Assembly (NCBI GenBank): GCA_025352145.1
Contig: JANXTY010000069.1
Span: 1-64,000, forward strand
Length of the DNA: 64,000 nucleotides
From: Oxalobacteraceae bacterium
GTDB lineage: Bacteria; Pseudomonadota; Gammaproteobacteria; Burkholderiales; Burkholderiaceae_D
Direction: 5' to 3'
A program made the translations under genes and the position numbers. Positions 37,113 to 37,970 of the stretch are shown here, piece after piece (within the stretch, counting starts at the first letter, position 1; the number at the start of each line of letters is the position of its first letter). The notes under the pieces were generated by a model, which had not been told where the DNA came from, ran no database searches, and saw only the letters and a list, made by a program, of their open reading frames with translations.

Positions 37113-37970
37113 TTAAATGCCTGAATCAGATTTCTTCTTCCAGTTCGGTAGGAATTTTTCTAGGGTGACCAGAAGATTATTCGGGTCCACCGGTTTGCTG
37201 AGAAAAGCATCGCAGCCCGCGAGTGATCCCCGCATTCTGTCCACAATATTGCGGTTTGCGGTCAGAATAATAATCGCAGTGCGTCTTCTTTTGTCGGGAG
37301 ACTGTTTTATTAATTTGCAAAATTTGATGCCATCCTGGTCTGGTAAATCCATTTCAAGTACGATGCAGTTGTATCGGGATACTTGGATGAGTTCGGTTGC
37401 TTGCGTCACAGTGGTCGCATGATCGACGCGATAGCCGGAGCTAGCCAAGCGCGTACTAATAAATTTTGATACAACGGGATCTGGATCGACTACTAAAACA
37501 GCCGCGTCCGTTAGAAATTCTTTGGGTGGTTGGTTACGGTCATACCAAGGGTCGAGTTGTTTGATTTCCAGATCATTGACACGATTGCTGAACTCTTCAG
37601 CTTGCGGTTCCGTTAGGGAATGAGTTTCAACTATCTCACCCAGCACGGTGTCTAGCGTATGTAAAATTCCGGCCCAACGGATGGGGCGTTGTATATGGGC
37701 ATCGACATTGGCGTTTTGGTTTGTGATGGTGCCAATGGTAACAATGGGGCTGTTTTTTTTACGGACTGAAGCCAAATCCAAACGTAATTTTGCCTCCTTG
37801 TCGTCAATATCTATCAAGACGCAATCAGGACGGGATTTTTCGCTTGGCTGCCATTCACGGTAGGCGCGCGTTCGCATCTCAGAAACCTTAAACATCGACG
37901 CCAACAATACGCGTTCATTCGGTTTGAAACCGAGAATCTCAACATCCATCAATTCAGAATTGTTATCCAT
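37113..37970 (-). CDS. Response regulator with degenerate receiver domains
   Basis: The 285-residue protein has two receiver-like halves. The C-terminal one (about 155-275) keeps the acidic pocket (VLVVDPDPVV, D162/D164), Thr237 (ILTANR) and Lys259 (LSKPVD), but the residue aligned with the phosphorylated Asp is Glu206 (IVLEMDLPDQDG). The N-terminal half (about 10-112) looks like a decayed receiver: PDCVLIDIDD for strand 3, IVTIGT for strand 4 and QRPI in place of KPx. There is no output domain. Such proteins may act as phosphorylation-independent adaptors; that is inference. No kinase gene is adjacent. Confidence 0.87.
   Translation of the reverse strand: MDNNSELMDVEILGFKPNERVLLASMFKVSEMRTRAYREWQPSEKSRPDCVLIDIDDKEAKLRLDLASVRKKNSPIVTIGTITNQNANVDAHIQRPIRWAGILHTLDTVLGEIVETHSLTEPQAEEFSNRVNDLEIKQLDPWYDRNQPPKEFLTDAAVLVVDPDPVVSKFISTRLASSGYRVDHATTVTQATELIQVSRYNCIVLEMDLPDQDGIKFCKLIKQSPDKRRRTAIIILTANRNIVDRMRGSLAGCDAFLSKPVDPNNLLVTLEKFLPNWKKKSDSGI

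Follow-up and report, generated by a model that had tools for sequence, protein, structure and literature searches.

What can a receiver domain do for a bacterium when glutamate stands where the phosphorylated aspartate is expected? The question is raised by a gene in the window, a stretch of 64,000 nucleotides (contig JANXTY010000069.1 of an Oxalobacteraceae bacterium, positions 1 to 64,000). The original prediction saw here a double-receiver protein with Glu206 at the acceptor position of its C-terminal domain. The open reading frame that it placed at 37113-37970 holds in coordinates and length (285 amino acids), but its strand has to be corrected to minus: the frame runs from 37970 to 37113, and the plus strand at the same coordinates has many stops. 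Neither a DNA-binding domain nor any other kind of output domain was found in the 285 amino acid protein. A scan of the region gave two promoter-like sites (2.1 expected) and three terminator-like sites (1.2 expected).

Residues were counted in ten members of one clade from the same family as the host (nine orthologues, the window's included, and a second copy in genome G066), in two clade members from another family, in 27 intact paralogues from the same family and in six intact relatives linked to gene clusters (see below). The last two sets together make up the 33 intact relatives. Three divergent relatives (L123_1, L020 and L063_1) were left out of the counts of 12 and 33, and neither the second of the tandem copies in L053 nor several other same-family matches were added. 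The same-family clade members are 33-59% identical to the window protein. The gene and its parts are as follows.

37113..37970, minus strand: whole gene, 285 amino acids plus stop; open-frame orthologues in 8 other genomes of the family
37623..37949, minus strand: N-terminal domain, residues 8-116, probable decayed receiver (profile comparison with controls, PDB profile search, residue table)
37509..37622, minus strand: linker, residues 117-154, carrying a WYDR motif (alignment)
37143..37505, minus strand: C-terminal receiver, residues 156-276 (PF00072 at 158-269, E 2.3e-23; PDB receivers)
37485..37487, minus strand: Asp162, DD1 position, kept; Asn in 3/10 same-family clade members (alignment)
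37482..37484, minus strand: Pro163 at the DD2 position; Pro in 10/10 same-family clade members, Asp in 33/33 intact relatives counted
37353..37355, minus strand: Glu206 at the phospho-acceptor position; Glu in 9/10 same-family clade members (alignments to PDB chains and to relatives)
37260..37262, minus strand: Thr237, conserved T position; T or S in 10/10 same-family clade members
37194..37196, minus strand: Lys259, conserved K position; Lys in 8/10 same-family clade members

The C-terminal half is a receiver, as predicted, and gives the only Pfam receiver match above cut-off (PF00072, 82.9 bits against a curated cut-off of 30.2); Thr237 and Lys259 are present as well. Alignments to PDB chains and to relatives run without a gap from beta1 to the LPxxDG motif, which places Glu206 at the acceptor position and Asp208 at D+2. 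Asp208 is thereby ruled out as the acceptor; its position varies among D, E, L, H and F. The claim that the domain keeps the acidic pocket stood only in part: Asp162 is kept at DD1, but DD2 is Pro163. The pocket motif reads VVDDS in intact relatives and VVDPD in the window protein, so that Asp164 comes one residue too late. Set against the residues of a canonical phosphorylatable receiver (DD1, DD2, Asp, Thr/Ser, Lys), the domain has proline at DD2 and glutamate at the acceptor. Passages of a 2025 review (PMC12632262) describe pseudo-receivers as domains identified as receivers that nevertheless lack key catalytic residues, and by its sequence the window protein belongs among such pseudo-receivers, or aspartate-less receivers, matching PF00072 with key catalytic residues missing. 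According to the same source, DD2 binds the metal directly and is non-acidic in about 80% of pseudo-receivers. Given Pro163 and Glu206, the usual metal-dependent phosphotransfer would hardly be possible in this domain, and we consider it likely that the domain works without Asp phosphotransfer. Loss of the DD2 acid also speaks against phosphorylation by the kinase of a chemosensory cluster, as far as can be predicted from residues.

Is the glutamate a chance event in one genome? It is found in nine of the ten same-family clade members, the tenth (L010) having Asp, and this rules out a lone mutation; kept at 33-59% identity, the substitution must be old and retained. Glu206 is among the slower-evolving sites (15th percentile of rates). 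The alignment of orthologues, which the original prediction had proposed as a check, thus bears out its reading of the site, with Asp in three clade members, namely L010 and both members from the other family. Asp also occupies the acceptor position in all 27 paralogues and all six cluster-linked relatives. DD2 follows a different pattern: it is Pro in the ten same-family members, Gly in the two from the other family and Asp in the paralogues (27/27) and cluster-linked relatives (6/6). Hence it is non-acidic in all 12 clade members, Asp-bearing ones included.

A glutamate can act as a mimic of the phosphorylated state, and Glu206, touching Thr237 and Lys259, could keep the receiver active, so that activity would be set by the amount of protein. 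Several observations suit such a lock: Glu itself (9/10), the Thr or Ser (10/10), the Lys (8/10) and Ile or Val at K+2 (9/10), together with statements in PMC12632262 that partial activation of many response regulators can be achieved with Glu and that CheY moves toward active forms when K+2 is Ile or Val. However, DD1 is Asp in only seven of the ten; the other three have Asn, all three carry Glu, and two of them have Thr or Ala in place of Lys with Glu retained. L010 has Asp alongside the same Pro163, and Val at K+2 is found in 33 of the 33 intact relatives counted and so is not specific to the clade. Moreover, a glutamate at the acceptor need not be what gives activity (PMC4395418, PMC12632262): in ChxR, the reported counter-case, changing Glu to Asp or Ala does not abolish activity (PMC4395418). 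Of the two options originally offered, constitutive activity through Glu is weakened because the pocket is not intact (DD2 non-acidic in 12/12, Asn at DD1 in three Glu members, two without Lys), and control in another way is the better supported. We regard a locked, constitutively active receiver as rather unlikely.

How widely is the gene spread? In the window's own genome there is one other full-length match, 33% identical, with an intact pocket (Asp-Asp, Asp, Ser, Lys). The host's intact paralogue is encoded at L118:7654-8589. A profile search detected a close orthologue in at least nine of 392 genomes of the family, the host included (E <= 2.7e-110); the remaining matches are of the paralogue type (best E 3.7e-51), except the divergent second copy in G066 (1.3e-73). 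Since these searches score a limited number of candidates per genome (as few as six), absences are uncertain. That second copy (L108:2482-3384) is of the Glu type and lies in a genome that also holds an orthologue. Among 74 genomes of another family there are two clade members (G779, G349) and one far relative (G823, locus L123). A pattern search of contigs gave 34 matches, one of them a weak relative covering residues 112-155 only, and plasmids yielded five matching records, all from Pseudoalteromonas, covering 34% of the query and the receiver part only. A literature search returned no title on this two-domain family among the matches listed, which is not proof of absence.

The patchy distribution, down to two of six genomes in one genus, and the long branches in our first tree are what one would expect of a dispensable paralogue that is losing its function. 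Such ordinary decay sits poorly with the open frames and 36 invariant columns across the nine orthologues and with the slow evolution of the switch positions (T, which is Thr or Ser, and K-3, which is Tyr or Phe, each in 10/10), and we think it very improbable.

The trees bear on the order in which residues were lost. Support for the same-family clade is 99/97, 98/98 and 97/94 in the first, second and third trees, and support for the 12-row clade is 89/52 in the first and 100/100 in the other two; L020 and L063_1 were included in the first tree and L123_1 in the third only. In the second tree the acceptor needs two changes, with L010 placed in an unresolved fork, so that a single change is enough if L010 is basal. 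DD2 is lost in all 12 members and Glu is confined to the same-family part, which makes it most likely that the metal site was lost first. Judged by these alignments and trees, loss of the metal site probably preceded the glutamate and is common to the Asp-bearing members.

Outside the clade, DD2 is not always Asp once the three divergent relatives are included, none of which has an acid there. L020, which stands beside the clade on a very long branch in the first tree, is the protein encoded at L110:2768-3595 (G025); its DD2, acceptor and T positions hold Lys, Asn and Val, which makes it another pseudo-receiver of the two-domain family. L063_1 has Thr at DD2 and Asp at the acceptor. The far relative from the other family, L123_1 (L123:71-1039, minus strand of its locus, G823), carries Pro at DD2 and Glu at the acceptor and keeps Thr and Lys. 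It falls outside the clade in the best tree on a very long branch, but a tree that groups it with the clade is not rejected either (p-AU 0.334), and its place is unsure. The Pro and Glu pair may have arisen twice, in the clade and in L123_1.

What is the N-terminal half? The original prediction took it for a second, decayed receiver, and profile comparisons suggest that it probably is one, with moderate support. A 47-row profile of residues 8-116, compared with 39 receivers, scored 26.7 (probability 43.6%), in register from beta3 to alpha5, and 28.3 (56.3%) with a paralogue as master row, against 9.4-15.4 for controls (ten column shuffles and one reversal). In a PDB search with a 19-row profile, the receivers 8svz (E 0.00086) and DivK (E 0.02) were matched in register. 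Designed TIM barrels outrank the receivers in that search, none with an individually significant stretch, and were set aside as internal repeats. Less favorable to the claim are the comparison with the family's own C-terminal receiver, which gave just 19.1 (4.5%), and Pfam, where no family matched the window protein's N-terminal part at E up to 1; across 19 N-terminal domains, five Pfam families were matched, each in one member. The best PHROGs match for this part has E 0.26, and a single-sequence structure model (mean pLDDT 32.7) is unusable for the fold.

The five catalytic positions of this half are Gly14, Phe15, Asp54, Gly80 and Arg95. Asp54 aligns with the acceptor, and the residue is Asp in 9/10 same-family clade members and 2/2 from the other family, compared with Asn in 27/27 same-family paralogues. 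This invites the idea that phosphorylation has moved to another acid, either Asp54 or, in the C-terminal domain, Asp164 or Asp208. Yet the other four N-terminal positions are Gly, Phe or Val, Gly or Phe, and Arg across the clade, while Asp164 is replaced by Asn in three of ten members and position 208 varies. A relocated phosphorylation site has, in our opinion, very little probability.

We now turn to the genomic neighborhood. On one side of the window gene is a YceI-domain gene and on the other a gamma-glutamyltranspeptidase gene of opposite strand; the chemosensory cluster with CheA, CheW and MCP that marks a Chp-type output regulator is absent from the locus. Across the nine same-family carriers, the flanking genes vary from one to another. 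Inspection by eye and clustering showed no chemosensory or kinase gene next to any of the nine same-family orthologues, and inspection by eye showed none next to the intact same-family paralogue in nine loci. In four genomes of two families (L046, L048, L117 and L121) the gene adjoins smpB, and in L046 and L121 an SPFH-domain gene lies on the opposite side; the position beside smpB is probably the older location. In G024 the gene is found among flagellar genes. Among 11 carriers, fliG was detected in nine and not found in two, and the PilJ N-terminal family was detected in ten and not found in G031. All 11 have pilT; it also occurs in 50 of 60 relatives, the host included, so its presence in carriers says little, and co-occurrence with pili was discarded as evidence. 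At L119 the host carries another set of genes, for two receivers, CheW and PilJ; going by gene order, the receivers are presumably PilG-like and PilH-like.

Intact relatives from five further families of the order sit in Chp-like chemosensory gene clusters. At each of six loci a single receiver comes after the intact two-domain relative, with a second tandem copy in between at one of them. Genes from part of these clusters were checked for domains, which confirmed CheW in 4/4 genes tested, MCP signalling domains in 4/4 and kinases with Hpt, ATPase, CheW and receiver domains in 3/3. By gene order, the cluster genes would correspond to PilG, PilH, PilI and ChpA. At L116:5720-7542 (G671), two tandem intact two-domain regulators lie ahead of a cluster of receiver, CheW, MCP and kinase genes. 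As no chemosensory neighbors were seen beside the same-family orthologues and paralogue, the link to the pathway rests on more distant relatives. Because the intact members lie in such clusters, the best guess is that the partner belongs to a Chp-like pathway, of the kind that controls type IV pili, and we assign the window protein to a Chp or pilus pathway tentatively, leaning somewhat toward doubt.

It is useful to compare the protein with known systems. PilG of the Pseudomonas aeruginosa Chp system is a single-domain protein. The intact two-domain relatives resemble it in lying beside a single receiver in Chp-like clusters. PilG is controlled through phosphorylation by ChpA (PMC10519157); unlike PilG, the window protein lacks the DD2 acid and the acceptor Asp and is outside any chemosensory cluster. 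Glutamate is reported as the commonest replacement of the acceptor (26%; PMC4395418). With aspartate-less receivers of this kind, such as ChxR, the window protein shares a receiver fold by sequence, Glu for Asp and a non-acidic DD2, but it has two receiver-like domains and no output domain was found in it. It keeps both the Thr/Ser and the Tyr/Phe, as do 47% of pseudo-receivers according to PMC12632262. FrzS of Myxococcus xanthus likewise has a receiver without a phosphorylation site and is tied to pilus-driven social motility; it fails to bind Mg, and a C-terminal coiled coil is predicted to mediate its dimerization (PMC1974792, PMC12632262). The likeness drawn here concerns the receiver of FrzS.

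Taken together, these observations lead us to propose, with confidence that reaches about halfway, that the window protein is a stand-alone, phosphorylation-independent two-domain pseudo-receiver adaptor whose partner would best be sought in a Chp-like pathway. The retained Thr/Ser and Tyr/Phe positions would link the pocket to the alpha4-beta5-alpha5 face, and through this face the C-terminal receiver most likely engages a partner, with binding either fixed or set by dose. The protein may compete with, or stand in for, the intact two-domain paralogue. It is tempting to hypothesize a fuller history, although we find it doubtful as a whole: a Chp-type two-domain regulator might have lost its metal site while still Asp-bearing and later gained Glu, becoming a phosphorylation-blind rival on the partner surface of the intact paralogue.

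The window protein is a further case of a known kind, the pseudo-receiver, and brings with it a useful set of natural variants. In related bacteria, one family spans versions of the two-domain protein that are intact, that bear Asp but lack the metal site, that bear Glu, and that have decayed further; with these one could test in which order the residues were lost and what Glu contributes. If the proposed order of losses is true, the glutamate would not count as just a phosphomimic placed in a pocket that still worked.
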